This document shows, piece after piece, positions 481 through 46,777 of a DNA stretch of 46,777 nucleotides. The translations under genes were made by a program, and so were the position numbers. The stretch's first letter is position 1; every line of letters begins with the position of its first letter. This stretch comes from Saccoglossus kowalevskii (taxonomy: Eukaryota > Hemichordata > Enteropneusta > Harrimaniidae). The notes under the pieces are model-generated. The model saw only the letters and a program-made list of their open reading frames with translations, was not told where the DNA came from and did not search any database. The DNA lies in assembly GCF_000003605.2 (NCBI RefSeq), contig NW_003149276.1, positions 96,789-143,565 on the forward strand, given 5' to 3'.

Positions 481-579
481 TAACTCCTGACGATCATACT
501 ACAGTCAATGTCGACACTAATGAAGCAACACTAAAAAGTAATCAAAAGAAGAATGTTCAAAGAGATGACACAGATGAAG
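481..579 (+). CDS. Mini-exon 1, long class, D subtype
   Basis: It has 99 bp, phase 1-1, with acceptor TATTTTGTAG and donor GTAGTA. It encodes V-TPDDHTTVNVDTNEATLK followed by the common tail SNQKKNVQRDDTDE. The following intron is 222 bp because of extra AT-rich sequence absent from the other introns. It is the first unit in the window and directly follows a palindromic insertion. Confidence 0.75.
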
Positions 580-801
580 GTAGTATTATCTTACTGTCTC
601 ATTTCACTCAATATTGAAAATACCTCCCTCTTATATAGTATTCATTTTATTTATTAATTTATTAACACATACTCACTCCCCCGAAGGAATGGCAATGGTT
701 ACAGATATTAAAAGTATACAGTATTAATACACTAAAAAGGGAGGAATAAAAACAAACTAATCTACAAAAACAGAATATTAATAAGTCTACTTATTTTGCA
801 G

Positions 802-900
802 CAACTACTAATTATCATACTACAGTCAACATCGGCACTAATGAAGCAACACTAAAAACTTACCAAAAGACAAATGTTCAAAGAGATGACACAGTTAAAG
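802..900 (+). CDS. Mini-exon 2, long class, N subtype
   Basis: It has 99 bp, phase 1-1, with acceptor TATTTTGCAG and donor AAAG|GTAACA. It starts A-TTNYHTTVNIGTNEATLK and its tail ends DDTVK instead of DDTDE. It belongs with mini-exons 4 and 5 to a subtype having TTNYH where others have TPDDH or TSDDH. Confidence 0.75.
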
Positions 901-986
901 GTAACATAATTTTACTCTCATTTCTCCCAATATTTAAAATACCTCCCTTGTATAGTATTATTATAATAAGTCTACTTATTTTGTAG

Positions 987-1064
987 TGACTTCTGATGAT
1001 CATACTACTGCAACACTAAAAAGTAACCAAAAGAAGAATGTTCAAAGAAATGACACAGATGAAG
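987..1064 (+). CDS. Mini-exon 3, short class
   Basis: It has 78 bp (26 codons), phase 1-1, with acceptor TTTTGTAG and donor GAAG|GTAATA. It reads V-TSDDHTTATLKSNQKKN and then a tail with QRNDTDE. Against the long class it lacks seven residues (21 bp) between HTT and ATLK, so the frame is kept. Confidence 0.75.
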
Positions 1065-1154
1065 GTAATATTATCTTACTATCTCATTTTACCCATTATT
1101 TGAAATACCTCTCTTTTATATAGTATTATTATAATATGTCTATTTATTTTGCAG

Positions 1155-1253
1155 CAACTACTAATTATCATACTACAGTCAACATCGGCACTAATGAAGC
1201 AACACTAAAAACTTCCAAAAAGCTGAGTCTCCACAAAGATGACACAGTTGAAG
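1155..1253 (+). CDS. Mini-exon 4, long class, N subtype, diverged tail
   Basis: It has 99 bp, phase 1-1, acceptor TTTTGCAG, donor GAAG|GTAATG. The start is A-TTNYHTTVNIGTNEATLK as in mini-exon 2. The tail is the most diverged in the array (TSKKLSLHKDDTVE), yet reading frame and length are kept, which suggests constraint on both. Confidence 0.72.
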
Positions 1254-1343
1254 GTAATGTCATATTATTTTAAATTCTGGATGAAATGAAATGTATCTCA
1301 CTCTCAATATATTAATATTATAATAAGTCTACTTATTTTGCAG

Positions 1344-1442
1344 TAACAACTAATTATCATACTACAGTCAACATCTACACTAATGAAGCAACACTAAAGA
1401 GTAATCAAACGACGAATGTTCAAAGAGATGACACAGATGAAG
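1344..1442 (+). CDS. Mini-exon 5, long class, N subtype
   Basis: It has 99 bp, phase 1-1, acceptor TTTTGCAG, donor GAAG|GTAATA. It reads V-TTNYHTTVNIYTNEATLK and then a tail with NQTTNVQRDDTDE, so it pairs an N-type head with the common D-type tail. That mosaic suggests recombination or gene conversion between units. Confidence 0.74.
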
Positions 1443-1530
1443 GTAATATTATCTTACTGTCTCATTTCACTCAATATTTAAAATACCTCTTTTGTATAGT
1501 ACTATTATAATAAGTCTACTTATTTTGTAG

Positions 1531-1608
1531 TGACTTCTGATGATTATACTACTGCAACACTAAAAAGTAACCAAAAGATGAATGTTCAAAGAGATGACAC
1601 AGATGAAG
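1531..1608 (+). CDS. Mini-exon 6, short class
   Basis: It has 78 bp, phase 1-1, acceptor TTTTGTAG, donor GAAG|GTAATA. It reads V-TSDDYTTATLKSNQKMN with the common tail. Exon and downstream intron are almost identical to unit 7, marking a recent duplication. Confidence 0.75.
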
Positions 1609-1696
1609 GTAATATTATCTTACTGTCTCATTTCACTCAATATTTAAAATACCTCTTTTGTATAGTACTATTATAATAAGTCTACTTATTTTGTAG

Positions 1697-1774
1697 TGAC
1701 TTCTGATGATTATACTACTGCAACACTAAAAAGTAACCAAAAGATGAATGTTCAAAGAGATGACACAGAAAAAG
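1697..1774 (+). CDS. Mini-exon 7, short class
   Basis: It has 78 bp, phase 1-1, acceptor TTTTGTAG, donor AAAG|GTAATA. It is nearly identical to mini-exon 6 but ends DDTEK instead of DDTDE. Its start lies exactly 166 bp from units 6 and 8. Confidence 0.75.
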
Positions 1775-1862
1775 GTAATATTATCTTACTCGCTCATTTT
1801 ACCCAATATTTAAAATACCTCCCTTGTATAGTATTATTATAATAAGTCTACTTATTTTGTAG

Positions 1863-1940
1863 TGACGTCTGATGATTATACTACTGCAACACTAAAAAGT
1901 AACCAAAAGAAGAATGTTCAAAGAGATGACACAGATGAAG
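1863..1940 (+). CDS. Mini-exon 8, short class
   Basis: It has 78 bp, phase 1-1, acceptor TTTTGTAG, donor GAAG|GTAATA. It reads V-TSDDYTTATLKSNQKKN with the common tail ending DDTDE. It is the third of three consecutive 166-bp units (6, 7, 8). Confidence 0.75.
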
Positions 1941-2028
1941 GTAATATTATCTTACTGTCTCATTTCACTCAATATTTAAAATACCTCTTTTGTATAGTAC
2001 TATTATAATAAGTCTACTTATTTTGTAG

Positions 2029-2127
2029 TGACTTCTGATGATCATACTACAGTCAATGTCGACACTAATGAAGCAACACTAAAAAGTAACCAAAAGAAGA
2101 ATGTTCAAAGAGATGACACAGATGAAG
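2029..2127 (+). CDS. Mini-exon 9, long class, D subtype
   Basis: It has 99 bp, phase 1-1, acceptor TTTTGTAG, donor GAAG|GTAATA. It reads V-TSDDHTTVNVDTNEATLK with the common tail. It is closest to mini-exon 1, although eight units apart and surrounded by short-class units. Confidence 0.75.
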
Positions 2128-2215
2128 GTAATATTATTTTACTGTCTCATTTCACTCAATATTTAAAATACCTCTCTTGTATAGTATTATTATAATAAGT
2201 CTACTTATTTTGTAG

Positions 2216-2293
2216 TAACTCCCGATGATCATACTACTGCAACACTAAAAAGTAACCAAAAGATGAATGTTCAAAGAGATGACACAGATGAAG
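2216..2293 (+). CDS. Mini-exon 10, short class
   Basis: It has 78 bp, phase 1-1, acceptor TTTTGTAG, donor GAAG|GTAATA. It starts V-TPDDHTTATLK, combining the TPDDH head of mini-exon 1 with the short-class deletion, another sign of mosaic exchange. Confidence 0.75.
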
Positions 2294-2383
2294 GTAATAT
2301 TATCTTATTTTCGTTCATTTTACCCAATATTTAAAATACCTCCCTTGTATAGTATTATTATAATAAGTCTACTTATTTTGTAG

Positions 2384-2461
2384 TGACTTCTGATGATCAT
2401 ACTACTGCAACACTAAAAAGTAACCAAAAGAAGAATGTTCAAAGAGATGACACAGATGAAG
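2384..2461 (+). CDS. Mini-exon 11, short class, last of the array
   Basis: It has 78 bp, phase 1-1, acceptor TTTTGTAG, donor GAAG|GTAATA. It reads V-TSDDHTTATLKSNQKKN with the common tail. The intron resembles array introns for about 20 bp and then diverges into unrelated sequence. The next recognised exon is the first DED half-exon at 6795, also phase 1. Confidence 0.75.
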
Positions 2462-2984
2462 GTAATATTATCTTACTATCTCCCAAGAGATGATATATGG
2501 CTCCATGGCATATTCTCCCTCATATTACACTTAATTTCCCCCACAAAACTATGCATTACATGAGGAACATGCATGTGTCACTACAAGTACTGCCACTATT
2601 TAGATATAGTCAGATATTGTCTAACCTAACACCAAGGGTGTCATGGGGAGGACTGCAATACGTAAAAATCAAGTCTTCGATTTTTAGTAGTGCACTTCGA
2701 AGCTGAGTAGTTTTTGATTCTTTTGTTTGAAGAACACAATAGGAGTTTTTGGAGTGTATGTAGGTTTGTACATTGTGTATTTCTGTTCAACTGACATGAA
2801 CCGCACATCAAATTTTGTACCTAGGTGCTCCTCTGGGGAAAATTTATAAATTTGAGTAAAAATCTGTTCATATCAATTAACTAATTTACACAATAATTAT
2901 TGCACTTCTTTCATGTTGTGAATATTAGTCACCTTTCTCTGATTTGTTCATTTCGTGATGATTTTTCTAATTTTGATGAATATT
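2462..2984. other. Intron, nothing recognised
   Basis: This begins the intron between the mini-exon array and the first DED exon. It is AT-rich unique-looking sequence with no exon-like segment having splice signals and a conserved domain. A 69-codon open frame at 2497-2706 has no features of a protein. Confidence 0.5.
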
Positions 2985-3420
2985 TGTGTCATTAGCTCTC
3001 ATCCTAGATAACAGAGCGGAGCTGTTCATATAGATGATTGTCCGCTGTCGTCCATTAACAATTGCATTTCTTCTTGAATAAACTTACAGCTCAATTGCTT
3101 TGTTACTTCGTATGTTATATTTGTTCATTTCCTGACAACATCGTCAATTCTCTAATATTTATAAATATATTTGTCATTTTAGGTAAAAATGCTATTTTCA
3201 ACTTTTTTGTTTTGTCTTGTGGGTGTGCGTTGCTTGACTTGGCTACCACAATGTTCTTGTGGGACTGAAAAGCTATTTTTTCCATCAGGTCTCTTGTTTT
3301 TATATGCAATTTTAGTTTTTGTTTCACTCTGCCCATGTTTGATATCAAACAAAATGGAAAGGTAACCCATACATTGTGCCGATTTTTATATTGCAAACCA
3401 GACTAGTAAATGTATTACAT
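2985..3420 (+). repeat. Dispersed intronic repeat R1, copy a
   Basis: It starts with ACAGAGCGGAGCTGTTCATA, has CTTCTTGAATAA and AATTGCTTTG-type motifs inside, and ends with a segment containing TTGGCTACCACAATGTTC followed by CATCAGGTCTCTTG. The same ordered modules recur at 17960 and 23740, which defines a family of roughly 315-470 bp. It has no coding capacity and looks like a non-autonomous element of unknown class. Confidence 0.6.
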
Positions 3421-3439
3421 GCATGTTAAATGATATTGA

Positions 3440-3965
3440 CTTTGAGTTGCGTATATGCCTACCACAGGGACTGTGATGTTCTGGGATAATGCTCAGACCT
3501 GATTTTTGGTTGAAATCCATGCACATGAATAACCTTATTTGCATATTAATTAGCCAATTTTACACATTTCCACTTGTTTCTTATGTACCACTAAACATAT
3601 TTCAACGAAACTTGGTACATGTATAGGACAATACTCAGACCTGATAAGTTTTTGGTTGAAATATGTACATTTTAATTACCTAATTTGGACATTAATTAGT
3701 TAATTTGAAGCATTTTTATTTGTTTCTCATCTTTCATTCTACAGGTTTCAATGAAATATGCTCTGGGATAATGCACATATCTGATTAGTTTTTGGTTGCA
3801 ACTTTGAATATTAATCACCTAATTTGCATATTAAGTAGCCAATTCAGGCATTTTCACTTATTATTCATGCACCGTTTAACATATTTCAATAACACTTGGT
3901 ACATAGATGCTCTGAGGCAATGCTCAAACCTAATGTTTTAGATGGAAATCAAGAAATTATCAATT
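3440..3965 (+). repeat. Tandem repeat family R2, copy a
   Basis: Three to four diverged units of about 140 bp are repeated. Each contains variants of TTAATTACCTAATTTGCATA, ATTTCAATGAAACTTGGTAC, a GATGCTCTGGGACAATGC-type segment and ACCTGATTAGTTTTTGGTTG. The same units occur at 21225-22060, 28090-28400 and 32550-32840. It is non-coding. Confidence 0.6.
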
Positions 3966-3971
3966 TCCATA

Positions 3972-4218
3972 TCACATCCTAGGTACAGTGGGTTGGTCCT
4001 CGAGGTGGTTCACAAAACTGGTGAATACATCTTTTAGTGCGAGTAAATCTTGGCCTCTGTTCCCAAAGACACTTGATAGCTTGTCACTAAAGTACGTTGC
4101 TTCTATAGTAATTACTGATGAATCCTTGAAATTCTTTTTTCCTGTCAATGGTTGAAAGTGCAAGTCAGCCAATATCTCGTAAGCAGTAGTGATAATGTTT
4201 GGAGCAGTGATGATTGTA
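3972..4218 (-). pseudogene. Coding-like fragment of unknown origin
   Basis: Reading from about 4218 down to the stop at 3972, the minus strand stays open for about 80 codons with balanced, protein-like composition. It includes AYEILADLHFQPLTGKK and SDKLSSVFGNRGQDLLALKD. No ATG lies at a sensible start, an in-frame stop lies just upstream, and no convincing acceptor was found, so it is more likely a piece of a mobile element or processed copy than a nested gene. I do not recognise the family. Confidence 0.3.
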
Positions 4219-4521
4219 TGTGGAAATCATGGTAATGTTTAGCCACAATCAGTTTGTTATCAGTGATAAATATGTGGGGGTAAATCGCTGTGATCTTTTA
4301 TGATATCCAAATAGATCGCTGGGAAACAACAATCTTTGATGCATCACCATGTAGCAGGGATCGCGTAAACCCTATTCTGTCTTCTGGACCCCCAATATTA
4401 GATTTATTTATTAAAGGGTTACAAATCAGATATTAGTAAAGAAAAATAACTACATAAAAAGTAAAGAAACACATAGCATAATGAAAAAGAAAATGATAAA
4501 AATTTGCATACAAGGAATGTA

Positions 4522-4794
4522 TTACTGGCTTAGTTTATGTAGGTGCTGCTGTCTTGTATTAAAATAGTTTTTTAAATATTGCGCTAAAGGAATAGACATT
4601 TTCTCGTCACTTAGTAATGATACGAATTTATTTTCATTACTAACTTTTTCAAAATTTGGTATACATTTATTAGCTACAATGTAAAGTTTTAATCTTATTT
4701 CATTGTAATGAAGACAATTTATGACAAGATGTTGTTCATCTTCAACATGGTCGTTGTCGCACATATTGCAGACTCTGTCTTTAAAATCAATCAT
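4522..4794 (-). pseudogene. LINE C-terminal zinc-knuckle-like fragment
   Basis: Ninety open codons contain RVCNMCDNDHVEDEQHLVIN followed by C, a C-x2-C-x9-H-x4-C pattern common at the C terminus of non-LTR polymerases. The rest (LCLHYNEIR-like text and a Leu-rich tail) also fits. It is the 3' end of the LINE copy, followed by about 130 bp of untranslated sequence to about 4390. Confidence 0.7.
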
Positions 4795-5302
4795 GTATGC
4801 CGCCCTGTTTCAATTTTCAGACCAAGTCTAAATTTTGTTAAGGATTTTTGCGAAGTTCTCTGTTTTTATAATAATAGTTTTCTTGTTCTATTTTGGTTTT
4901 AACAAATTGTGTAGGTTCTTAGTTTATTTTTAGAATTTGATTTTTTCCTGTTGTCATTATTTATTTCATTTTTCCACTCAGTTGTAAATTCCTCTTTTAA
5001 TTTCTCATCAATTGTTTTTAATTTTGATAATGAGATAATATTTGTTTCATTTAAAAGATAAGAATGGTTTATATTTTTTAATATCAAATCAAGTTTTTTA
5101 AACCATTTACTTTTAATAATTTTGTTGACATAGTATACTTCTCGAAGTAGAGTATTTGTGCAATATGATTGGCATAATTTATCATTTGTTTCTTAATAAA
5201 AGAGTCAAGAGGTAATTTTCCTAATTCACACTATATTGCCATGATTGGTGTATTTTTTGAGATACCAAGAATGATACAGATAGTATGTAAGCTGGACATC
5301 CT

Positions 5303-5551
5303 CTACAATTGATTTTGTAGAATTTTCTTCTCCCCAAATATCACTCCCATACACAATAACTGGTCTGATAAGTTTATCAAATAGTGACAGTAGTATGGAC
5401 ATGTCCAGATAAGACTCATAATTAAGCCAAGATAATTGAAATCTTTAACTATATTAATTTCTTTTCCTTCATAAAAGAATATTTCCTTGTTAAGGAGTCT
5501 GTTACATTTATTGAATATCATCATTTTTGTTTTATTTGTGTTGACAGACAA
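5303..5551 (-). pseudogene. LINE polymerase thumb-region fragment
   Basis: The segment SVNTNKTKMMIFNK, then YEGKEINIVKDFNYLGL, matches the stretch after the YADD box in non-LTR reverse transcriptases, where the Lys-Thr-Lys and F-x-Y-L-G motifs are usual. After the FNYLG box the frame is probably shifted, since the remaining residues look unlike the family. Confidence 0.65.
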
Positions 5552-5614
5552 CTACCATTTTGATGTGTAGGCTGTTAGTTTATCCAAACAGTTTTGTAAT
5601 ACCTTTTTGGATTT

Positions 5615-5845
5615 TTAAATAATCACAATATCATCTGCATAAAAAAGGCAATTAATGGGTGTGTTGTGTAACAGTGTAGGGTCACAATGATCATTATCAA
5701 AAATATCAGGCAGGTCATTAATAATTAAATTAAACAGACTTGGGCTAAGGTTGCATCCTTGTTTTACTCCGATATTTGAACAAACATCACCATACATATC
5801 TTTTATAATTTTGTACATATTATCGTTTACACCATTTTTCAACAA
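5615..5845 (-). pseudogene. LINE reverse transcriptase fragment with YADD
   Basis: This open 76-codon piece covers the finger/palm part of a non-LTR reverse transcriptase. It contains GVKQGCNLSPSLFNL (template-grip region), INDLPDIF, and ends at CLFYADDIVII, whose two Asp bind the catalytic metals. The frame continues upstream without an ATG for about 20 codons (FVDLKNAFDSVW). The stop after IVII is a break, not the natural end. Confidence 0.8.
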
Positions 5846-6115
5846 TTTATAAAAAAGACCTTCAAGCCAAACACTATCAAAGGCGTTTTTTAGGTCTACA
5901 AAGCAGGCCTAAATTTTATTGGATGTTTTTGATTTATTTTTATCATCCGCCTGATGGATGATCTTCTTGTCCTGATGGAAGTATTTATTGATAATAGTTT
6001 TCAGGATAAACAGATTGTCTGTTGTTCGACAGTCTTTCCTGAATCCAAATTGTTTATTCTAGAGGATATTATATTTGATTATATTATTTATTAGAGAGGG
6101 ACACCTATTTTATTA

Positions 6116-6794
6116 TAAGAAGGGGTCCCATAAATAAAAGAATCTACAGAATATATTGTTAATTTTCCTTAGTTTTCCCATCAGAACTCGCTACACTGAA
6201 ATGCTGACGTATTCTCTATGAAGTAGTATGTAGACAAAGTCGTTTTCTTTCACTTTATTTTTAGAGCAATGCATTACTGAGAGATACAAGACTTGTTATG
6301 ATTTTGAGATACTTTACTTTAATATAGTATACCCCGCCTCACCATTTGTGGGAAAAGCATCATCAAAGTTTTCTTGAATTACATTTACTCATTTACTAAA
6401 CTTTGTTTTCACGCATTATTGAGCTGCAAATTGATATTTTTTTCTCAATATAAACATTGGCATTTTTCAGTAAACTAACCATAAACAACCATAATCCTAG
6501 ACAGCATTTACCTATATGTGAACTTTTACAAAATGGCATCTGATGACGTTGTGTTAAAGAACAAGAAACAAGTTGTACAATTTCTCGCCCAATCTCACTT
6601 GCTGCTTACAATCTCTTTGCCACTTACAATGTATTTCCTTGCTTCTCGGACCGGTTCTCTTTTTAACATAATCACCTATCTTATATTTGTAATTATAAAA
6701 TATATCTTTCTCATTACAGATCCCCTAATGACCTACTAAACTTGTGTTTGTGGTACCCTAAAAATATGTGTTATTATTTATGTTTATTTTGCAG
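6116..6794. other. Intron 5' of the first DED exon, nothing recognised
   Basis: The sequence is AT-rich with no repeat I could match elsewhere in the window. An open frame at 6518-6739 is hydrophobic and low in complexity and lacks splice or start context. The stretch ends with the tract TTATTTATGTTTATTTTGCAG-like acceptor (last bases 6785-6794). Confidence 0.45.
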
Positions 6795-6899
6795 TGTCTT
6801 ATACTAACTCAACTTTTGAAGACAGAAGTACAAATAATATGATAGCATATGCAGAGTTCAACCAAATGCTCTGTGATATTTCTGATCAAATTGATGATG
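6795..6899 (+). CDS. DED-like domain 1, exon A (helix 1)
   Basis: This exon has 105 bp, phase 1-1, acceptor TTTATTTTGCAG and donor GATG|GTAAGG. It encodes about 20 residues of linker and then AEFNQMLCDISDQIDD, which lines up with helix 1 of death effector domains such as FADD (F-x2-hydrophobic-L pattern at the N terminus). The partner exon B at 8889 supplies helices 2-6. Parallel exons with LLCDISDEINDG (11400) and MIWTISTEINKG (17779) end at the same domain position and in the same phase. Assignment to the DED fold is by pattern only. Confidence 0.75.
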
Positions 6900-8888
6900 G
6901 TAAGGCATACACTTCTTAGTCCCAGCAGTCCGAAAACAAGGATTTATGGATTGATCGAGTTTTGTGTTTGTGGTCTGTGTTTCTCACATGCTTGGATCGA
7001 TTAAGTTCAAACTGTATTCAAACACAGGACATTATATTTGACATATACACATGCATTTGTTTCATAATTTGATTTGAGATGGCCTAATGGCAGCCATTTT
7101 AAGGTATCAAAGTAACACATTTCACCATTCTGGAATCAGATCTTAGTTCTACATGGACAGATTCTGTTCAAACTTGGTACATACATTGAACTTCATGAAA
7201 TTTTTAAATGAGGCGGTGAATACTGAGCTAAAATTGAGGAAATTTGAGACAAGTGCGAGTACAAGCACATTTTGGAATGCTTTAGAAGGAAAAAAAACGT
7301 CTGAGGGGCATAGTTCAAAATAATACACGCGAGAACTGTGAAATCCAAAATGGCTGGCAGTAATCAAGTAGAGCCCATGATTCATACTACCAGCTCAATT
7401 GCTTTGATCCTTGGTTCTTAAATACCATGGGTGTACTCTATCAGAGCTGTTCAGTTTGTGACATTTTTAGCTCCGCTGTCATCGCAGATGACCCAGCAGA
7501 GCTGTTGGTATGAGGGTCTCTCCGGTGTCGTCCGTCCTACGTTCCACGTTCCAAGTTTTCTTTTAAGTGACTTCTTCTTCAAAAGTACTTGACCATTCAT
7601 TACATTCATATTTGTACCAAAGGTACTGTCATATTTGTTAAATTTGTGTCAAAATATGCAAACTTCGATTTTTAGTGAATATGTTTTGTCATTTTTGGTA
7701 CAAAATATTATTTTCGACATCTAGTCCTAAAGCGTAAGTCAAGTTGCTTTCATATTTGCAGCAAGGATACGTGGGGTGGTCCTTCGTCAGATTTGTCAAA
7801 TTTGTGTCAAAATTTGCAAATTTGGAATTTTAATGAATATTTTTGTCATTTTTGGTAAAAAATGTTACTTTCGAAAACTAGTCCTAAATCGTAAGTCCAA
7901 TTGCTTTCATATTTGCAGCAAGGAACACTAGAAAAGTTCATAATTGCAACTGCAAGCAACTCAAGTGCAATGTTCTCTAATAGACTGACTATGAATATTA
8001 CAACCACAGTGTCACTTTACTGATTCTTGTTCCATGATAATGAAGACAGCGGAGCTATTTCGACCCTCAGCTCGCTTGTATTTCTCACTCTCTCTATTTT
8101 CACTGAAATATCTTCGTTAAAAAATTATCGCAATTGCATTGATACTTGGTATGTAGGGTCGATGAGATTTATAATAATTATATTTTCCATAGCAACAACC
8201 GGAGAAACTATTATGGATATATGGCAACAATCTTGTGGGAACATGAATTACCTTGCTAAATATTTAATATCGCATCACACAGAACATTATCAACTGTTGA
8301 GAGTAATACACTTCACCAAAACAGCTGAGCTACTTCACCTGTTAGCTTGAAAACTGACAATTTAATTTTTTTGATACTTATATTTACTCGTTATTTCTCT
8401 ATTCTTAGTGCATATTTTTGGTAAAAAAATAATGTTGTTGTCTAACTAATTGTCCTATTGCCTTGACACTTAAATTGTTGGTGTCTTGGGTGGGTGATGA
8501 TGACGTTCTGTTTTTTTCAATCCAATTCAAGACGGCTAACTGGCAGCCATTAACCATATCGCTATTCCAAATCATTGTACCTTGTGAGCGAGTTATGACC
8601 GAATCAAACTTATTTCTACCAATTATAAAGCATGCCTGCTCCCAACAATGCACTATAATTTAGAATTACAATATATGTACATTTTGCCATCTTAGATATT
8701 AGAGACACGCAGATGTCATGTTTATTTCAAATATTATAACACACCATACGATTATTGTACTCTTATATGTAAAAACAAATAATTGTCATTGTTCTGAACT
8801 CAGTTTTAAAACAGGTGTGATTTTTATTCACCTGTCATTTTGACTTAGTGCATATTTGTATATAATTCTATCCTTATTTATTTCATAG
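6900..8888. other. Intron splitting DED 1
   Basis: It holds an R1-like stretch at 7465-7935, described separately, and otherwise AT-rich sequence with no exon. Part of 7080-7385 resembles the R4 family (AAAATGGCTGGCAG near 7345). The 107-codon open frame at 8027-8350 has no recognisable domain and no splice context. Confidence 0.5.
7465..7935 (+). repeat. Dispersed repeat R1, copy b
   Basis: It starts near AGCTCCGCTGTCATCGCAGA and contains two tandem modules of about 170-180 bp. Each has TTTGTCAAATTTGTGTCAAA-type text, TTTTGTCATTTTTGGTA and TTGCTTTCATATTTGCAGCA. The modules are more diverged from copy a than copies f and g are. Confidence 0.5.
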
Positions 8889-9089
8889 AAACATTGAAGA
8901 CTTTGAAAGAACGGTGTGGTGATAATATACCAGCAGCTATGAAAAAAGAGGCAAAGAATGCGTATGACATATTTATATTGCTATACAAACATGGGCATAT
9001 TGGACTTGAAAAAACCAAATATTTGGAAAGTCTACTGAATGATATTGGCAGAGCAAAATTGTCGGATTTTGTGAAAAAGGTCCAAAAAG
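8889..9089 (+). CDS. DED-like domain 1, exon B (helices 2-6)
   Basis: This exon has 201 bp, phase 1-1, acceptor TTATTTCATAG and donor AAAG|GTGTGT. It starts ETLKTLKERCGDNIP and contains AYDIFILLYKHGHIGLEKTK and YLESLLNDIGRAKLSDFVKK. This follows the DED pattern of FADD and caspase-8: D-L-F-x-x-L then L-x-x-L-L-x-x-hydrophobic and a final charged helix. The usual R-x-D-L motif reads R-A-K-L here, so the Asp of the charge triad is replaced. The intron before it is 2.0 kb. The likely role, by analogy, is homotypic interaction with other DED proteins. Partner unknown. Confidence 0.78.
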
Positions 9090-9479
9090 GTGTGTGAAAA
9101 TGAGTGGCAATGTTGTACCAATTATGTCTGTCTGCTCATTCAGTCAATTGATCACTTGTGCTCGGTAAATCTTTTCATATGATGGTAATGATATGGCTGT
9201 AAGATAAATCAGTTCAAAATATCTTGCGTTTGGTATTTGCATTGAAGTTCTAATATATCACGGCAGTTTATTTTTTTAGCTGATTATCACTTGCAATATT
9301 TTGTTCAGGTTTGGTCATTTTAGAACAATGGTAACAATTAATTACGAGTATTTTTCTTTAACCTATGATTTACCTGAGCAAATTTGTGAAGAATTAACCT
9401 AAAAAAACTGTCGCTATTTAATATTGTTTTTCACTTTACTTCTGATATTGAGGCTAATTTTCAAACAGTTACTCAAAAC

Positions 9480-9790
9480 ATTGAAATTTTTTAAAGCTTT
9501 GACTGCACTGTCCTCATCAACTTTTAACTTTTCAACTTCTTCTTAAAAACAACAAGTCTGATTGCTTTGAAAAAGGTGATATTTTCAACTTCTTTATGAA
9601 AACTGCATTGATATTACACATATAGGTACCTCAGGTGAACCTTCTCTAATTTTGATGAATATTTTTTGTCATTTTGGATAAAAAGTAATATTTTGGACTT
9701 CTTGTTGAAAAGTCAGATTGCTTTGATATTATACATATAGGTTGGGTGGACCTTTGTGTAACTCGCAAACATGATTACCTTTTTGGGTCA
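9480..9790 (+). repeat. Dispersed repeat R1, copy c (fragment)
   Basis: It carries R1 modules CAACTTCTTCTTAAAAACAA, GATTGCTTTGA, ATACACATATAGGTACCTCA-like text, CTAATTTTGATGAATATTTT and GTCATTTTGGATAAAAAGT. It lacks the AGCGGAGCTGT start and the 3' segment found in complete copies. Confidence 0.5.
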
Positions 9791-36089: not shown

Positions 36090-36115
36090 GATGCTTACTG
36101 GACTACAGGGTCCAC

Positions 36116-36594: not shown

Positions 36595-36674
36595 GTGGCA
36601 GATCACCCACTGGGTGGCGGATCGGCATTTTCGTTTCTAGGATGGGCCCCGGATAGAAGCTATAACTTAACCAT

Positions 36675-36920: not shown

Positions 36921-37470
36921 AAGCGTTAGCGCAATAGTGTCTTTAGCCGAAACCAGCCTCCTCCTCCGGCGCTATCAAACCCCAGCAATACACTCTTGTT
37001 GATGCCTTGGAATTGTTGGGGCCCTATTTTATTGTTCAGACGGCCCGCTTTATTAAGCCTCCCCAAATTGGGGGGGGGGGTCTACTCTCGAGGCACCTGT
37101 TCCCTGAAGAGTCGCCTGAGTGTTTGTATCCTAGGACATCCTCCTTGTTAGTGAGTAGTTTTAGATTTCTCTCAGTTTTTTGACCTTTTTCTTTGTGTCG
37201 AAAAGTGTACATTTCAGCCATCAGAGCTTCCCCACCTCCGGTGAGCGTGCTACTCTGCTAACGAGTAATAAATGAAATTATTATTTCCTTGGATTTTTTG
37301 GTAGGTGATGTAGTAAACTATTAGGTTTGTACAAACCCGTTTGTTTACCTAATCATACCTACCAGAAAGTCCATGGAAACCGCCCACTTCCCCCACAAGC
37401 TTCCGGCGGCCCGTTGCTGCAGCGGTAACGTTTGTGAGAATGAACGGATCAGGCACCCTGAGGGTGACCC

Positions 37471-38164
37471 AACAGGAGGGGCCACTCTCAACCAGACTCA
37501 CTCTTTGTATGTAATTTTTTTTGATTGCTCAGTCCTGTGGATTTTCTCATTCATTGGTTCATTGAATGTTGAAATTTTCAAATTTCAGAGGGTGTCACTC
37601 ATTCCAGGCCCTTGGTGTGTGAGATTATTTTGTAGCACATCACCTTAAAATACGTTATGAAATGTAGCAAAACAAGCTTAAGAGTTGTTACCTGCCAGCT
37701 TAAGTTACAGGATGTATTATTCTACATCACAAAACTTATACTCTCTATCATCTGCCAAGCAGATAGAAATCAAATAATAATATACTTATAAACTTTTCTG
37801 CTTACAAAATATAAATTTACTCCAGCAGCTGACAAAAGCAAAGCAAAATGCATATCAATAGGAAGTGTTCAATCTAGTCTGTCATTTTCAGCATTGTCAG
37901 TGGTGCGAAATCCACTATTTTTAAACGCAACTTTTATCAAAGTTGACAGCACCTACTCACCTTGTAGTTCCAGCTTGTATGGGCATCTATGTCTATCTTA
38001 AATCAGAAACCGTTTTACTAAACAGTTTAATGTACACACATGTATACAGATGGTGGAATCAATTTGATCCCACATTAGTGGGCTTACACTACCAGTGGCC
38101 AGGGATGTGGGAAATTAAAATGCAAAAAATAGTTTCAGTTGAACGATAGATAATTAAATCTTGT
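37471..38164. other. Spacer between DIRS copies B and C
   Basis: About 690 bp of AT-rich sequence has no exon or repeat I could match. The two DIRS copies are therefore separate insertions or were split by this sequence, not a direct tandem pair. Confidence 0.5.
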
Positions 38165-38383
38165 AGTTTACTACATCACCTACCAGATAATCTGTGGAAA
38201 TAATACATTTAATTTATTACTCGTTTAGGCTTAATTACAGATCACAGCCCCAAACGGAACTACTAGAGAATATACCCGGGTCCAAAAGTAACACCCTAGG
38301 GTAGCATTCTCTAGAAAAAAGGCCTCGTTTAAGGGGTCACCAACAGGGCGATCACGCACCAGAGGCCTGCCAGTTCCAATTCT
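38165..38383 (+). repeat. DIRS copy C left terminal inverted repeat and complementary region
   Basis: The outer 56 bp pair with 42585-42639. The whole stretch pairs with 42734-42945, including a perfect 41-bp block (38343-38383 with 42734-42774) containing GCACCAGAGGCCTGCCAG. The inner TAATACATTTAATTTATTAC-type part is itself nearly palindromic. Confidence 0.8.
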
Positions 38384-38779
38384 TTTTTTGTCACTTTTCA
38401 TGTCTTTTCTTCGATTGCATCATGCTTAAATCATTAAAGAGACTAAGAATGTGCCGACTAAATTTGGCACATTAGATACCTTCACCTTGCCACTGCCAGT
38501 TTGGGACCCAAACATATGTGTTGTCATTTTGTTATAGTCCCAAACATAACTCGGGATTTTGCCTCGACGAAATTTGCGATCTGTGGCATTCTCGTTCGTG
38601 GTAGCGCTTTGAGGTGGAGGTTGAAGCTGAGGGCAAGTGATCGCAAAAAGCTGGTATGCGTCGCTCAAAAAAGGGGAATCCCCAACAAAAGCTAGCGATG
38701 TGTAAGTTTTTCATGAGTGATAAAAAAAAATCTCTCCCTTTTCCTTTGGTAGTGAGACGAGGCTTGCCTCCTAACGCGA

Positions 38780-40560
38780 CTGAGAAAAAAAAGAGTTGCC
38801 CGTGTCAGAGTCCCTGCTTAATATAGCGGGATTGGCGATCAAGACAAGACCTTCAAAACTGTTTATTTTTGAGGTGACGGGGATGTTATTCAATAAATTG
38901 GAAACACCGGCAACGGGACTTTCTCCCAATGTGGAGTTAGTTTCCCCGTTCGATGTTACCATGGCGGGCAAACACCGTTCCGTCGCTTTTGCTGGGGGAT
39001 CAGAGTTGCAAGTCACCACGGTTACCAATGTGGGTAAACAGCATATTCCCACTTGGGCAGACATCCACACTGAGTACCAAGGTTGAATCAGTATGGCCCT
39101 TAGGGACTGAACCGGTTCAATCCACCGAGACTTCATAGGTACCGAAGCAGCCTGAGTTGCTTGCACGAACACAGGAACAGGCCCCATTGCCTTCCCTTAC
39201 CGGTACTAGTCAAGGTGACCAGTTCTCCCATGGTGAAGAGATGGTTTGGAAGACATAGATGTTTAATCTGGCTTCAAAAGTCAACTCCCTTTTGCAGTTG
39301 CAGGGTATGACGAAGGAGGACCTGGGAGGCGTGGCTGAGATACTGCCTGTTCCTCCTCCTCCGCTAGGACTAGGGTCAGATGTGTCCCATCCCCCAGTGA
39401 TCCCTCTTTTAGAGGATCAGGGGGGACAACTCACATCAGTGGGAAATGAAGTGTCCACTTCTTTTATAGAAGAGGGGTCCTCTCACTGGAACAGATGACG
39501 TTACGCATCCTCTTCCGAATTCCCCACACCCCCCTCAGGCTCTGGCTGACCAGGCATCGCTTCCTGCATCTCACCAAGCCGCGCAGAGTGCCCCTACTTG
39601 TTACTCTGTGAGGGGGGCTCCAGTGTTGGTACCCCTCTGCACAGGGGTACGCAGCCCCCCCACAGGCCCCCTGGGGTTGCAGTTACCGCTTCCTCAGCAG
39701 CGGCGGGGAGGACGCCTTGTTTCTCGCCCCTTCCTTGTTTGAACAGGCACAGGCTACCCAGCCAATCGGAGCCCAGCTGACCCATGCCATTATACAGTTA
39801 AGGACGCAGCTTGCGAACCGGGCAGTGTTTGGTGCGAGACTTTGTTTTCATGCGGGCCGGTGGTGATCCCACCTCTCCAGCTGGGGGAGTTGCCTTTGGA
39901 CTTTTTTGTTTTCATCCGCGCTCCCCTTCCTACTGCTTACATGGAGTCCATGCCTGTTGGCCAACTCTCCTAGGCACCTCGTGTGACCCAAGTTGTGGAG
40001 GGAGCTCAGAGGGCCCTGAGGTGGTGACTGATACCCCTTGTTGAGACAAGGACGAAAATACTGATCCTGGATTGGGTCGTCCTTGTTCCATGTCTTTCCT
40101 TGGAGATGATACCCCATCGGGGCTACGCAAACCGTCAATGGGTCCCTGATTCGAATTACTCGTGCGCGGTGCCATAGCCTTCTTCACAGCTTCCCGTCCC
40201 GATCCCGATACTCATGCCTTTGTTAAGGCGGGTTACTGCAGGCAGAACTTAAACCCATTAACTTTGTAGAATGGGTCTCCTTAGAGCGTCAGCTCACTCT
40301 TTTAAGTTCTGACCAGCTGAGTGCTAGGCAACAAACCACGATCCTCTGGCAGTTGGACCAGTTTTGCACAGAGAGTTGTTATATGCGACATCCTGCAAGT
40401 CCATACTGCCCTCTTGGCAAGGAGCAGTTTCGGTTGAGTGAGAGGCAATACTGAGTCAGTGCGTCTACCCTACTCTAGCGGTAGACGAGTTTGATCACCT
40501 TCGGAGATGGCCTTGGGTGCACGGCTGGCTTGATGGTGGCTGTTTTGCTGATGCGGTGGT
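38780..40560 (+). pseudogene. DIRS copy C gag-like region, degenerate
   Basis: The collinear match to copy B 33680-35150 includes frames with SPNVELVSPFDVTMAGKHRS (38796-39086) and FNLASKVNSLLQLQGMTKED (39259-39498). Many stops and shifts break it. Copies A and C share variants not in B, so those two may be closer relatives. Confidence 0.55.
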
Positions 40561-41649
40561 CGTTATTGGTGGTTGTGCAGGATCAACGTATTCATTGAAG
40601 AAATCATCCTTGTTGCCCTTTTTAGGTCGACAGTTCTCACCAAAACCACAGGACAGCTCAGGCAATAAGTCCCATGCTTTTTGACCAGCCAGCGAGGATC
40701 GAAAGCGCTTGTGGTCTCCTTCTAAGGGGCAAAAGAAGACCAGTAGCGGGAAGTGTCAGTAAGGGTCCAAGAACGTGGTGGGAAGATGTTCTGGCATTTC
40801 CGGGGTCCAGGGAGCCACGAATTCTCGTTAAAGGCTTCTCTGGCTGCCTGGGCATGGATGGTTGTATGACTCTGGGTTCACCCTTCTGGAGTCCTCCAGC
40901 TCAGCCTCCCTGTCTCTGACCTCCTACGTTGAGGGCTGGAGTTCAGAGAGCTCTAGCTCCGAACCCCTGTCCGCTCATCCCTGTCGGATAACGCCTCAGC
41001 AGCACACTCCAGCTTGGCGCAGGATAGTTTCTGACCCCTGGATGCTCGCAGTAGAGTCTCGGTGTGTGTGTGTGTGGGGGGGTATCAAAGCCCTCTCCGG
41101 TCTCTTCTTCTGACACCTCATACCCCTCTGGTCTTCTCTGAGGGACGAGGTCAAGGCGACCCGGCAGGAAGTAGCCAGTCTTCTGGAGAGAAGAGCAGTT
41201 CGCCTTGCGGAGATTCCCATTTTATTTCTATATCCTCCTTGTTTCAAAGTGTTGGGGGGTGGGGGTGTGGCGTCCTGTTCTAGTCCCCCAGCAGCTGAAC
41301 GGTTTTGTGGAGCTCAATCGCTTCTGGATAGAAACGCCTATTTCCGTGTCTCTGTTAGAGCACTCGGGCGATTGGCTAGCGTCGCCTGGAAAATCTATCG
41401 ACAATTCCTGGATATCGGTTGGTTTTGTTCCCAGTTTGGTCTGCTGGGCTGAAACTCGCTTTGAGTTCAATTATGCACAACTGTTTTAGTCTTTCTGCTC
41501 GAAGAGGCCGCATGCCAAGGGGCTAACGAATTCTCCACACTGGGACTTGTCGTCGGTTCTAGCAGAATTACGACAACCCCCTTCGAGTCTATGGACCGGC
41601 AGACATGAAGTATGTCATTATAAAAACAGTTTTTTCTTTTGGGTCTGGC

Positions 41650-42250
41650 ATCAGGTAGGCGGCGTTCAGAAATAGGGGCACTGTCTTTCAGTTATGGATG
41701 TGCTTCCTTCATGAACTCACAAGTTATTGGAAGACTCGGATGGGCTTCTTGCCAAGAATCAATGCTAACTGTTTGTCGTCACTAACTTAGTGGGCTTGGA
41801 AGACCGTTAGGAATGGATTCTATGTCCTGTCCTAGCTTTGAGCTGGTACTTTGATCGAACCAAGGTGTCTCGGGCAATGAGAACAGCTTGTTATGGGCGA
41901 GGCAAGCAAAGCCACCCTGCCTCAAATATCACCATTTCACGGGGGATTGCCAATACAGTTTTGGAAGCATATAATTTTATGGCTTCTTCAGCGACCTGTT
42001 TGGAAAGTCACCAGGTGAGGGCACACGAGTAGCGAACACTTTGGCTTTGATTTCTGGTGCCTCGTTCGAGCATATGCTCCGAGCAGGGTTCTGGTGATCA
42101 CAGAATATCTTCATTAACTATAACCTGAGATACCTCCAACAAACGCTGGAGAAGGGTCTCTACAGGTTGGGACCAGTGGTGACAGGTCAGACAGTTTTCG
42201 TTGACCCAGCCCACACCATCAGGGGATCCCATGCACGAAAGCGTTAGCGC
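41650..42250 (+). pseudogene. DIRS copy C tyrosine recombinase, degenerate
   Basis: MSWYFDRTKVSRAMRTACYG with RGKQSHPASNITISRGI (41838-42032) parallels copy A. The frame stops just after HQVRAHE, where about 15 bp spanning the catalytic H-x-x-R are deleted relative to A. The rest (ISSLTITCDI-type region up to GQTVFVDPAH) survives in other frames to about 42240. Confidence 0.65.
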
Positions 42251-42584
42251 GTTGGTGTCTTCAGCCGAAACCAGCCTTATTTTGATCAACGCTGCTGGCT
42301 TCGGTCTGCACTATCCAACCTCAGCAATACACTGTTTTATGCATTAAAATTGTTGGGCCCTATTTTATTGTTCAGGTGGCAGGCTTTAGTAAGCCTCCCT
42401 AGATTTTGGGGGCCTACTCTCGGGCATCCGGTCCCTGGAGAGTCACCTGCGTGGTTGTATCCCAGGATAAGACTCCTTTTTAGTGAGTAGTTTTAGATTT
42501 CTCTCAGTTTTTTGAAAAATGTACATTTCAGTCGCCGGAGCTTCCCCACCTCTGGTGAGCGTGCTACTCTGCCTAATGAGTAAT

Positions 42585-42982
42585 AAATGAAATTTATTAT
42601 TTCCACAGATTTTCTGGTAGGTGATGTAGTAAACCATTTGTTTACCTAATCATACCTACCAAAAAATCCGTGGAAACCCACTCACCTCCCCACAAGCTTC
42701 AAGCGGCCATTGTGGACCAGCGTAACATTTTTGAGAATTGGAACTGGCAGGCCTCTGGTGCGTGATCGCCCTGTAGGTTACCCCTTAGACGAGACCTTTT
42801 TTCTAGAGAATGCTACCCTAGGGTGTTTCTTTTAGACCCGGGTATATTCTCTAGTGGTTTCCATTTGGGGCGGTAATCTGTAATTAAGCCTAACAAGTAA
42901 TAAATGAAATTTATTATTTCCACGGATTTTCTGGTAGGTATGATTAGGTAAACAAACGGCTTTGTACAAACCCTAATAGTCC
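42585..42982 (-). repeat. DIRS copy C right terminal complex
   Basis: In order: the right inverted repeat (42585-42639), a segment GTTTACCTAATCATACCTAC (42645 on) that is inverted at about 42918-42957 to form a hairpin with 40-45-bp arms, and the inverted copy of the left end (42734-42945). Copy B has the first two parts and an 18-bp complementary block only. This right end is therefore unusually complete, or includes part of a second, oppositely oriented copy. Confidence 0.7.
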
Positions 42983-43133
42983 TTAATTGTTGTGAGTGGT
43001 AGGCAAGTGATTTGATTTTGGGTGTTTCCCCCAGCAACAATAATTCTTGAAAACTAGTAACCCAAATTGTATTAGGTGGACCTATGTCTAATTTGTGCTG
43101 ACAATATCCCTTTATTTTACATACAATATAAAG
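42983..43133. other. End of the 18.5-kb intron
   Basis: Short non-repetitive sequence ends in the tract CCCTTTATTTTACAT and AATATAAAG, taken as the acceptor because it restores phase 1 from the FN3 exon. The AG is preceded by purines, so the exact junction is less certain than others. Confidence 0.45.
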
Positions 43134-44719
43134 AAACACCAACCTACAAGGATGATCTCAAGAAGATAGCAGAACAAATTCAGAAATTTAACAATGAAAA
43201 AGAGTGCATCAGTAAAAGTCTGAAAAAAACGTTATCTCATTACGAAGAATTGAAAGAAAAACTTGAGAGAACACAAATTAAGTTACAGAGTTTGAACAAT
43301 GAGAAGGATCATATCAGTAAAATACTCAATGAACCCATCGAAAAACATGATGTACATATGCAGAGCTTAAGCGTTCAACGTTTCACAGCCGAACTGAAAG
43401 AAACACAATGCACATACGAAAAAGATGTACAGATACAAAGTCTAAACAGTGAAAAGGATCGCATCAGTGCAGAACTGAAAGAAACACAAAACAAATACAA
43501 ACAATTGGAAGACGAAATCAAGAAAAAAGATAAACAGATACTTAGTTTAACAAATGAAAAGGATCACACTATTGCAAAAATGAAAGTAACTCAATTAGAT
43601 GAAAACCTTAAGAAGATAAATAAAGAAATAAACCAAATCAATGCAGGCTTCAAGGAAACACAATCCAAATACAAAGACTTGGAAGAAAATCTGAAGATGA
43701 AAGATGAAGAGATACAGAAATTGAGCAATGACAATTCTCGTATTAGTGCAGAACTGAAGGACACACAGTTCAAATACTGTGATTTACAAAACAAAGTAAA
43801 GAAGACTGAAGAAACGTTACAGAGTAAGATGATTGAAATGAATGGTATCAGTGAGAAACAATCCAAATACAATTACTTAGAAGAACACATCAAGATGAAC
43901 GATGAAAATATACACAGTTTGAACAAAGAAAAAGAGCTTATTTCTGCAGAACTAAAAGAAACACAATCCAAATACAAAGACTTAGAAGAACACATCAAGA
44001 TGAACGATGAAAATATACACAGTTTGAACAAAGAAAAGGAGCTTATTTCTGCAGAACTAAAAGAAACACAATCCAAATACAAAAACTTAGAAGAACACAT
44101 CAAGATGAACGATGAAAATATACACAGTTTGAACAAAGAAAAGGAGCTTATTTCTGCAGAACTGAAAGAAACACAATCCAAATACAATGACTTAGAAGAA
44201 CACATCAAGATGAACGATGAAAATATACACAGTTTGAACAAAGAAAAGGAGCTTATTTCTGCAGAACTGAAAGAAACACAATCTAAATACAATGACTTAG
44301 AAGAACACATCAAGATGAACGATGAAAATATACACAGTTTGAACAAAGAAAAGGAGCTTATTTCTGCAGAACTGAAAGAAACACAATCCAAATACAAAGA
44401 CTTAGAGGAAAATCTCAAGATGAAAGATGAAGAGGTACAGAAATTGAGCAATGCCAATTATCGTATCAGTGCAGAACTGAGAGATGCACAATTAAAATAC
44501 AGTGATTTAGAAAACAAAGTAAAAAAGAATGATGAAACTTTACAGAGTAAGATGATTGAAATGGATGGTATCAGTGAGAAACAATCCAAATACAATGACT
44601 TAGAAAATCACATCATGTTGAACAAAGAAAATATACATAGTTTGAATAAAGAAAAGGAGCTTATTTCTGCAGAACTGAAAGAAACACAATCCAAATCCAA
44701 AGAATTCCAGCCAAAGCAG
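43134..44719 (+). CDS. Long coiled-coil exon with 35-residue repeats
   Basis: This exon has 1586 bp, entering in phase 1 and leaving in phase 0 at donor CAG|GTAAAC. It starts TPTYKDDLKKIAEQIQKFNN and is highly charged, with Leu/Ile/Tyr at heptad positions and no Pro until near the end, so a long parallel coiled coil is predicted. Between 43876 and 44505 six tandem 105-bp units encode DLEEHIKMNDENIHSLNKEK with ELISAELKETQSKYK. Thirty-five residues equal exactly five heptads, so the register is kept. Diverged older units flank them on both sides (SLNSEKDRISAELKETQNKY near 43440). It probably drives oligomerisation or spacing between FN3 and ankyrin parts. The open frame extends upstream to 43076, but that Met lies before the likely acceptor. 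Confidence 0.88.
43876..44505 (+). repeat. Six 105-bp in-frame coiled-coil repeats
   Basis: Repeat starts (CTTAGAAGAACACATCAAGA or close variants) are at 43876, 43981, 44086, 44191, 44296 and 44401, exactly 105 bp apart. The first five differ by only a few bases. The sixth changes to LEENLKMKDEEVQKLSNANY, a variant also found upstream at 43680-43740. It is likely to vary in copy number. Confidence 0.95.
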
Positions 44720-44906
44720 GTAAACAAACTAACAACACACACTCTGCCATAACATTTTTCTTGTGGTTACAATTAAAATTCTCCATTGTGTTAACCACAG
44801 TGAGAATCATGTCAGTCAGTATGTCAGTCGGTCGGTATTTCGGTATCATGAAATTGAATATGTTGCATATTCTACATTTCACGCAGTATTATAATATTTG
44901 TTTCAG

Positions 44907-45002
44907 AATAAGACTCACCTTCACTATGCAGCAGAAAAAGGTGATAGTAAATCAGTTGGAGCTTTGTTGTTGGAAGGGGCTAAAGTAAACGCAGTTGATG
45001 AG
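44907..45002 (+). CDS. Ankyrin repeat exon 1
   Basis: This exon has 96 bp, phase 0-0, acceptor TTTGTTTCAG and donor GAG|GTACTA. It encodes NKTHLHYAAEKGDSKSVGAL and LLEGAKVNAVDE. The T-x-L-H-x-A-A-x-x-G turn and the L-L-x-x-G-A-x-V-N end are the ankyrin consensus. The usual TPLH reads THLH. Ankyrin repeats stack into a protein-binding surface. Confidence 0.9.
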
Positions 45003-46502
45003 GTACTAGTAAATTGTAGTATATATTTGTTTAATATACTAACACTAATTGCAAACACTAATACTAACTAACATTATTACTAACAGCATTTCAGGCTTAT
45101 CCACATAATAGTATAAATATATGTCCTCTGCAAAATGCTACATCCATTTTTTGCTTGCTATGATTGGTGTCAAGTCAAATAAATATTCGTGATGCAATTC
45201 CAGTCTTTGATGATGTTTTTTTACCCTCACTAAATTATAGGATCAAATACTTTCCATACTTTCCGAGAATTCCACTCTAAGATTTATTTTGCAGTTCAGG
45301 AAAGAGTTTTGCTAAAATTACTGTCCATGACTAATACAATGGTTGTTATATTTCCTATATGGTAGACTGTGATGATGTGATGAAATCATGGAAAGCTGTA
45401 TTGTTTAATCTTGGCAGTGAATGAAATGTTTATTCTTCAGCCACAATCAGAAAATTGGGATGAATTTTATGAATTGTCTATCACAGCAAAATTTGCATAA
45501 GGCAGGATCTAATGAAAACCAAAGAAAATGTTCGCGTCATTCTGTAACCATTGACTGAGTGTACTTAAATCGGTGGTCTAACTTGACTAATGCTTAATTG
45601 TCTATTGATTTATGCTGACCATGAGTTACTCGGTCGTAATGTTTTTGTTTACTGTTATTTATCAGTGTATCCAGCCAGATAACATTCTTAATATTTTATC
45701 CCACAGTATTCTATCATAGATTAAAATGTAATAATCAAGTAATGTTTTTTGTTCGTTTTCAGAACCATGACACTCCATTACATAACGCTACAAAGAACGG
45801 ACACACATCTATTGTTGATTTATTATTAATTAAAGGTGCTGACGTAAAAGCTGTCAATAAAGTGAGTATGTTGCGGGTACCGATGTAGTATATCTACCCA
45901 CATGTGCCAGTTTTGGTTGGGAAGGAAGTCTATTTTGTGACTTCATATCGAAAACAATTGTCAGACAAGTTTTTTTTTTTTTTTTTGTAGTATAACAAAT
46001 TAAAATATCGTGGGAAGTTTTTAAAAGTTGTAGGGTCCTCTGGCTGAGGTGCAGAATTACCACATTAGTGGATGACACCGTTGCTATGGATGCATATGAA
46101 CAAACATAAATAATACAATTTGCTGTCTCAAGAGGCAAAAAAAATGAAATTTAAAAACTGGCTACAGACCAACCAACCTTGTTCTTGAAAATGCCAAAAG
46201 AAAAATACATCTGCAGACCAAACAGTATTTGTGACCAGATTGACATCAGTCACATTTGACGCTAGACCACAGCAAATATTGTTAATGTTTTATTGACAAG
46301 ATTCGTCAGTAACAATCAGATTTGTGAGAGTAGTTGTTAATATTCAAAAGAAGTCTATCCCACAAATTCTGCTGTCCTGGAAAAAGTCAGACCATATCAT
46401 AAAGTAAATTACATGAACAAACTTACTATTTCTACACAATGCAGATGCTTTTCCAAATTGATTATGTAAATAATCGATGATACCGTACTTTTTGTATTGC
46501 AG
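45003..46502. other. Introns between ankyrin exons
   Basis: Two introns (45003-45762 and 45862-46502) hold AT-rich sequence with a T run of about 19 at 45969-45987. No further ankyrin exon in phase 0 was seen. The introns lack the R1-R5 families that fill the upstream introns. Confidence 0.5.
45763..45861 (+). CDS. Ankyrin repeat exon 2
   Basis: This exon has 99 bp, phase 0-0, acceptor TTCGTTTTCAG and donor AAA|GTGAGT. It encodes NHDTPLHNATKNGHTSIVDL and LLIKGADVKAVNK, one complete 33-residue ankyrin repeat with the TPLH, NGH and GAD motifs. Confidence 0.92.
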
Positions 46503-46595
46503 AATAAGAAGACTCCTCTGATGTTAGCTCTTGGGGAAAAGAAATATGATGTAGTGCAAATGTTGCTGGTACCTAGCCTCAGAGAGATGAATAAT
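46503..46595 (+). CDS. Ankyrin repeat exon 3
   Basis: This exon has 93 bp, phase 0-0, acceptor TTTTTGTATTGCAG and donor AAT|GTAAAT. It encodes NKKTPLMLALGEKKYDVVQM and LLVPSLREMNN. TPL-x-x-A and V-x-x-L-L are kept, but the end lacks the GA-x-V-N motif and it is two residues short, so it is a diverged repeat. Confidence 0.8.
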
Positions 46596-46728
46596 GTAAA
46601 TATAGTTTGTCTTAATTCAGAAATTTTGATAGACCTTTATTATTTTTGCTCATAATACACTCAAACTGATACACACTCACATGTCAAACTTCATACTAAT
46701 AATATTTTTGTTCTCTATACCCTTGTAG

Positions 46729-46777
46729 AAAAATATGTTTATACTCTTGGAGCTAGATTCTATTGTGCCTTTATTGA
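46729..46777 (+). CDS. Ankyrin repeat exon 4, cut by window end
   Basis: It follows acceptor CTATACCCTTGTAG and reads KNMFILLELDSIVPLL to the last base in phase 0. The start lacks the TPLH motif, so it may be a degenerate repeat or the start of the region after the ankyrin domain. The gene continues beyond the window. Confidence 0.6.

Follow-up and report, generated by a model that had tools for sequence, protein, structure and literature searches.

The window considered here is a stretch of 46,777 nucleotides from Saccoglossus kowalevskii (contig NW_003149276.1, here C3952:96789-143565, plus strand, in a genome of 572,110,611 bases and 4830 contigs), bearing exons for a repetitive linker, three death effector domains (DEDs), a fibronectin type III (FN3) domain, a long coiled coil and ankyrin repeats. 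With a probability of roughly 0.6, these exons belong to a lineage-specific family of DED scaffolds arranged in tandem, in which at least one member, the upstream neighbour named here gene A, encodes a Roc-COR unit. Computation gave the exons with their phases, the domain matches, the domain-exon order of gene A and the expansion of DEDs. The scaffold C3952 is 143,565 bases long and ends where the window ends; immediately before the window comes a long run of N.

The plus-strand model comprises 23 exons and 1368 codons, with zero stops or frameshifts and with GT/AG at the modelled junctions (Table 1). The junctions are in phase 1 throughout until the coiled-coil exon and in phase 0 thereafter, as claimed in a preliminary description made from the letters of this DNA, whose named parts (mini-exons, DEDs, FN3, coiled coil and ankyrins) were likewise recovered on the plus strand close to where it had placed them. 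Three complete ankyrin repeats are followed by a partial exon, and the joined repeats match Ank_2 with 69.6 bits. The Pfam comparison of plus-strand frames covered positions 1-15002 in three frames and 15000-29999 and 16001-31000 in one frame each, while positions 31001-46777 were covered solely via single open reading frames (ORFs) and the joined ankyrins; elsewhere, it covered C3952:1-40000 in three frames and one frame each of two further loci (L016 and L052). The cut-offs were 35.9 bits for PF01335, 27 for Roc and 25 for fn3.

Three DEDs are present, as first described, but the helix-1 exon of each had been overlooked, so that each domain is encoded by two exons. The matches of the exon ORFs begin at model positions 14-15, thus lacking helix 1, and the introns were therefore searched for a helix-1 motif with a phase-1 donor, which gave one plausible candidate in each of the three intervals, plus one implausible candidate. 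With acceptor rules, and with filters chosen after the matches were known, the scan gave three matches on the plus strand of the window and none on the minus strand; the 70 kb upstream, with its runs of N, gave none on both strands, and 10 shuffled windows together gave two. It missed the helix-1 exon of gene A near 31.5 kb, which was spotted by eye, being thus specific rather than sensitive. Joining the two exons raised DED1 to 57.9 bits and DED2 to 58.4 bits, with model positions 1-81 covered, while joined DED3 reached 26.2 bits, still under the Pfam cut-off. The second exon of DED3 scores 53.9 bits against a DED hidden Markov model made from this genome, a partly circular value, as the window DEDs were included in it. 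The best PDB match of DED2 is caspase-8 (E=2.2e-4), and no relative of the DED1 second exon was confirmed on viral contigs. Homotypic assembly is plausible from the fold of these domains, and none of the three has the exact R-x-D-L motif, which belongs to the charge triad of DEDs and lies close to the C-terminal helix; DED3 has KKEL.

Gene A lies on the same strand, at about 3.5-33 kb of C3952 (3484-32999; loci L012-L015), and its exons follow the order DED, TRADD-N-like, coiled coil, ankyrins, Roc, COR and two DEDs, which would form a single transcript. The TRADD-N-like exon has no Pfam match and no PDB match, and its label is our presumption, given by eye after the description in PMC8195603. 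The second and third ankyrins of gene A were matched by Pfam (39.8 bits reported) and the others by eye. Kinase and death-domain matches are absent from C3952:1-40000 (three plus frames) and from the window frames scanned, and queries for DED, TRADD-N-like, FN3, ankyrin, COR and Roc gave no further family exons between gene A and the window, outside the runs of N. At least 67 DED matches occur in the genome, 52 of them at or over the cut-off, and the comparisons given here use 30 of the 67, from fetched loci. Split DEDs are common among them, as 16 of the 30 begin at model position 5 or later, and in eight of these 16, the 1.5 kb upstream holds, by eye, a plausible exon for helix 1 that ends in a phase-1 donor. 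A tree was built from 69 columns of 36 DEDs, namely the 30 fetched, the three of the window and three from upstream; in it, DED1-3 and the two post-COR DEDs of gene A form one group with support of 96/81. The size of this family, together with the expansions of DED and TRADD-N (NCOA6-clade) proteins with variable partners reported from sponges, oysters, amphioxus and cnidarians in the available part of PMC8195603, supports the earlier suggestion of a lineage-specific DED scaffold. Long frames near the DEDs of two loci (L021 and L046) resemble NACHT-type NTPases, by eye only.

Table 1. Exons of the window (window coordinates) and of gene A (C3952 coordinates)
Feature	Position	Strand	Phase	Remarks
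Mini-exons 1-6	481-579, 802-900, 987-1064, 1155-1253, 1344-1442, 1531-1608	+	1-1	
Mini-exons 7-11	1697-1774, 1863-1940, 2029-2127, 2216-2293, 2384-2461	+	1-1	
DED1 exon 1	6795-6899	+	1-1	linker and helix 1
DED1 exon 2	8889-9089	+	1-1	helices 2-6; PF01335 37.9 bits on exon ORF
DED2 exon 1	11400-11498	+	1-1	linker and helix 1
DED2 exon 2	16839-17048	+	1-1	helices 2-6; PF01335 41.8 bits on exon ORF
DED3 exon 1	17779-17877	+	1-1	linker and helix 1
DED3 exon 2	23381-23593	+	1-1	helices 2-6, divergent; PF01335 20.7 bits
FN3 exon	24357-24647	+	1-1	donor GTGAGT; PF00041 39.7 bits
Coiled-coil exon	43134-44719	+	1 to 0	529 aa
Ankyrin repeat 1 exon	44907-45002	+	0-0	
Ankyrin repeat 2 exon	45763-45861	+	0-0	PF00023 33.6 bits
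Ankyrin repeat 3 exon	46503-46595	+	0-0	
Further exon start	46729-46777	+		divergent, perhaps ankyrin; cut by scaffold end
Gene A N-terminal DED	C3952:3493-3687			44.3 bits
Gene A TRADD-N-like exon	C3952:4820-5197			relatives downstream of DEDs in L038 (E=1e-10) and L045 (E=2.7e-7)
Gene A coiled-coil frames	near 10.0, 10.8, 13.1 kb			by eye
Gene A ankyrin exons	near 13.5, 14.0, 17.0, 22.7 kb		0	single repeat each
Gene A Roc	near 23.3 kb			16.4 bits, under cut-off
Gene A COR-A				58.8 bits; then phase-1 junction into helix-1 exon near 31.5 kb
Gene A two post-COR DEDs				38.0 and 42.7 bits (31.4 and 35.0 in long-frame scan)

Regarding the linker, the 11 mini-exons within 481-2461 are each 78 or 99 nt long, a difference of one 21-nt block, all of them multiples of three and free of stops, and they encode 319 residues of repetitive, hydrophilic sequence, as seen by the TRF array and the exon model. 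They are recent duplications, with a mean divergence of 11.3% compared to 12.7% for their introns (computed with the first exon and first intron excluded, the latter being longer), and their splice-site conservation is partly built into the search, as they were located by common splice-site words. The pN/pS of 0.62 (55 pairs) points to weak constraint, and the mini-exons are likely coding. A derivation of the DED1 first exon from the mini-exons was rejected, as only the splice-acceptor word is common to them and 33 of 200 shuffles equal it. A repetitive, linker-like open frame of about nine-residue units, in the style of the mini-exon linker, was also observed near another DED (L043, from 2359).

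The FN3 domain of the window has at least 78 genome matches at E<=0.001, its own among them, on eight contigs (150 of the 166 candidates were scored), and 65 of the matches listed are on a single contig, C3771. Its nearest relatives among the matches listed are C3426:18792-19061 (56% identity) and C3392:1772-2059 (47%), both with stops, and C3981:160064-160642, in three pieces of 45-56%, two of them with stops, which suggests that these stop-bearing relatives are decayed copies. On C3981, the FN3 relative and a DED match are found on the same strand, about 15 kb apart.

The coiled coil of 529 residues has a z of 13.8 in a simple heptad score of our own, compared to 500 shuffles, and contains internal repeats of 35 residues (105 nt); as each corresponds to five heptads, the copy number can vary without loss of register. 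A 104-residue piece of it has eight genome matches at E<=0.001, all inside its own exon, whose acceptor is the least convincing of the model (tacaatataaag). The junction from FN3 to coiled coil spans 18,486 bp and holds two retroelement copies, together about 9 kb, while queries for further DED, TRADD-N-like, FN3, ankyrin, COR or Roc exons gave none in this gap. The window has three related copies of this retroelement (18500-23090, 32800-37320 and 38160-42955, with approximate ends), DIRS-like by eye; the second carries an RVT_1 reverse transcriptase, and the third is bounded by inverted terminal repeats and stops about 180 bp short of the coiled-coil exon. Between the mini-exons and DED1, pieces of a reverse-transcriptase element were observed on the minus strand (4522-5908, with RVT_1 at 5615-5908). 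Tandem repeats (periods 157, 138 and 316 bp) and a TCTG microsatellite are located at 7628-7924, 12850-13226, 25553-26465 and 27543-27629, and neither RNA families nor tRNAs were detected in the window. Elsewhere in the assembly, the contig C4830 (L049) is mitochondrial, with TGA read as Trp, cox1 on the strand opposite to the nad1 and cox2 frames, nad1, cox2 and atp8 frames assigned by eye around cox1, and AGA/AGG absent in the 447 codons of cox1 counted.

Several observations weigh against this reading of the window as part of a DED-scaffold family with Roc-COR. Within the tree, DED1-3 do not form a separate cluster (recovered in 34% of 200 bootstrap trees), and the N-terminal DED of gene A falls outside the group of the window DEDs, on a long branch whose placement is unsure. 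The exact R-x-D-L motif is found in 0 of the 6 DEDs of the scaffold, compared to 17 of the 30 other fetched DEDs, and relatives of the window FN3 or ankyrins were absent within about 1.5 kb at the 30 fetched DED loci. The ankyrins of the window and gene A are barely alike (E=0.26), no TRADD-N-like exon was found in the window (best match E=0.98, by a single query that also failed to find the L019 copy matched by eye), and no Roc or COR exon was found there, though the same queries find the COR of the contig C3244 at E=5e-23. The genome has 13 COR-A matches, spread over 11 contigs, and that of gene A is the only one close to a DED; C2347 has both COR-A and DEDs, but about 545 kb apart and on opposite strands, so that gene A alone links them. 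Moreover, no DED follows the COR in the fetched stretch of C3244, where some of the sequence before COR consists of N, and the order on C3981 is FN3 and then DED, the reverse of the window, with an internal stop in that DED.

The preliminary description had also proposed a single composite gene; strand and phases agree with it, but the joining of FN3 to the coiled coil across 24647-43134 is an interpretation, not an observation, based on phase, splice sites and the order of gene A. Slightly favoured is one gene in which the linker, DED1-3, FN3, coiled coil and ankyrins would be followed, by analogy with gene A, by Roc-COR past the scaffold end. The FN3 exon is unlikely to be a last exon, since it ends in a strong phase-1 donor, the coiled-coil exon requires a preceding phase-1 exon, and gene A has a DED before its coiled coil and ankyrins, in the same order as the window. 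As the neighbour carries Roc-COR, the coiled coil and ankyrins of the window may lead into a GTPase past the scaffold end, and Roc-COR would then belong to the window gene as well. Somewhat short of even odds, two adjoining tandem genes could account for the same exons, the linker, DED1-3 and FN3 being the C-terminal tail of one, while the coiled coil and ankyrins open the next; the Roc-COR of the first gene would then lie inside the upstream run of N, which is compatible with the family reading. The grouping of DED1-3 with the post-COR DEDs of gene A speaks for such a tail and against the single gene, and on C3244, a contig of 22 kb, a COR exon 25.6% identical to that of gene A (E=1.8e-24) ends in phase 1 and has an FN3-like phase 1-1 exon downstream (C3244:20678-20968, L051), separated from it by a retroelement-like stretch; however, this FN3 is remote from that of the window (E=0.28) and below the cut-off (16.2 bits). 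The two blocks are 18.5 kb apart, and this gap contains six candidate first exons that have an ATG and a phase-1 donor, making a hidden start possible, yet a two-gene model has to postulate two exons not observed, one closing the first gene after FN3 and one opening the second before the coiled coil. The intervening DNA gave no relatives of known family exons, and the phases agree with one gene (chance 1 in 3).

The composite gene as first proposed, having the linker, DEDs, FN3, coiled coil and ankyrins without a GTPase, is doubtful. Its single strand and compatible phases, the lack of Roc and COR matches in the window and the presence of a DED near only one of the 13 COR-A matches would fit it, but the ankyrin exons of gene A continue into Roc and COR, and the window gene leaves the scaffold amid ankyrin exons. 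A dead or scrambled locus, with decayed copies, retroelement insertions and no protein expressed, is very improbable: there are retroelement copies in the introns, the FN3 relatives on C3426 and C3392 and two of the three pieces on C3981 bear stops, and DED3 is divergent; against this, 1368 codons run without stop or frameshift, with GT/AG at the modelled junctions, and the pN/pS of the mini-exons is weak evidence of constraint.

Tentatively, the DED-scaffold family may be one of tandem Roco GTPases having their own DEDs, both before the coiled coil and ankyrins and after COR, by which a GTP switch would be coupled directly to DED assembly of the caspase-8 type. Just as tentatively, the window would hold a member with three DEDs, FN3 and exon-repeat linkers. 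In the predicted mechanism, a target or host factor would be bound by the ankyrins, molecules would be paired through the long coiled coil, Roc-COR, if present, would switch assembly, and the DEDs, on flexible repetitive linkers, could nucleate an assembly of the caspase-8/FADD type, which may signal cell death or inflammation. The locus illustrates the duplication and shuffling of phase-1 exons (linker, DED and FN3) within a growing family of immune type, and the DED-Roc-COR gene A next door is a more interesting point than the window gene itself.

DED signalling and Roco GTPases, such as LRRK2 and DAPK1, are both tied to cell death, and in DAPK1 the ankyrins precede Roc. Like DAPK1-type Roco proteins, which have a kinase before Roc-COR and a C-terminal death domain, gene A has Roc-COR and then death-fold domains after COR; unlike them, these are DEDs instead of a death domain, another DED is N-terminal, a kinase match is lacking in the frames scanned, and Roc-COR was not seen in the window. 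If true, the presence of both modules in one gene would be a natural test of whether Roc-COR switching drives DED assembly. The accessible portion of PMC6337361 groups Roco proteins into LRR, LRR-kinase and, as a third group, DAPK1 types, with no DED-bearing Roco mentioned in that portion, while an LRRK2 motif is described as interacting with FADD in the part available of PMC5823876. The cnidarian NG3, having kinase, death domain and TIR with SH3, Roc and COR, is also a lineage-specific immune-type fusion of death-fold and Roc-COR units, as far as the visible text of PMC5094078 goes, but with death domain, kinase and TIR where DED, coiled coil and ankyrin are found here.

The literature searched, mostly titles and beginnings of abstracts with few subscription journals, gave no DED-Roco or DED-FN3-ankyrin protein, and full texts gave nothing combining death effector domain, FN3, ankyrin repeat and invertebrate. 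These searches, with no eukaryote protein database among them, agree with the earlier statement that no described protein has this order of domains. Compared to the tandem-DED adaptors caspase-8 and FADD, the window shares the DED family, DEDs in series and the best match of DED2 among solved structures (caspase-8), but it has three DEDs, no caspase domain was found, and exact R-x-D-L is lacking in all three. A further likeness is to the NCOA6-clade expansions, which, according to the portion of PMC8195603 at hand, also have a large family of DED proteins within a genome, death-fold units at the N-terminus, low-complexity linkers and variable partners including ankyrins, with unique architectures in 25-50% of the proteins. 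Gene A, by eye, likewise has a TRADD-N-like exon after its DED, whereas none was found in the window by the single query, and no architecture in that portion puts an FN3 plus a long coiled coil in between DED and ankyrin. The architecture is new in detail, as far as searched, but of an ordinary kind for an invertebrate immune-type family.

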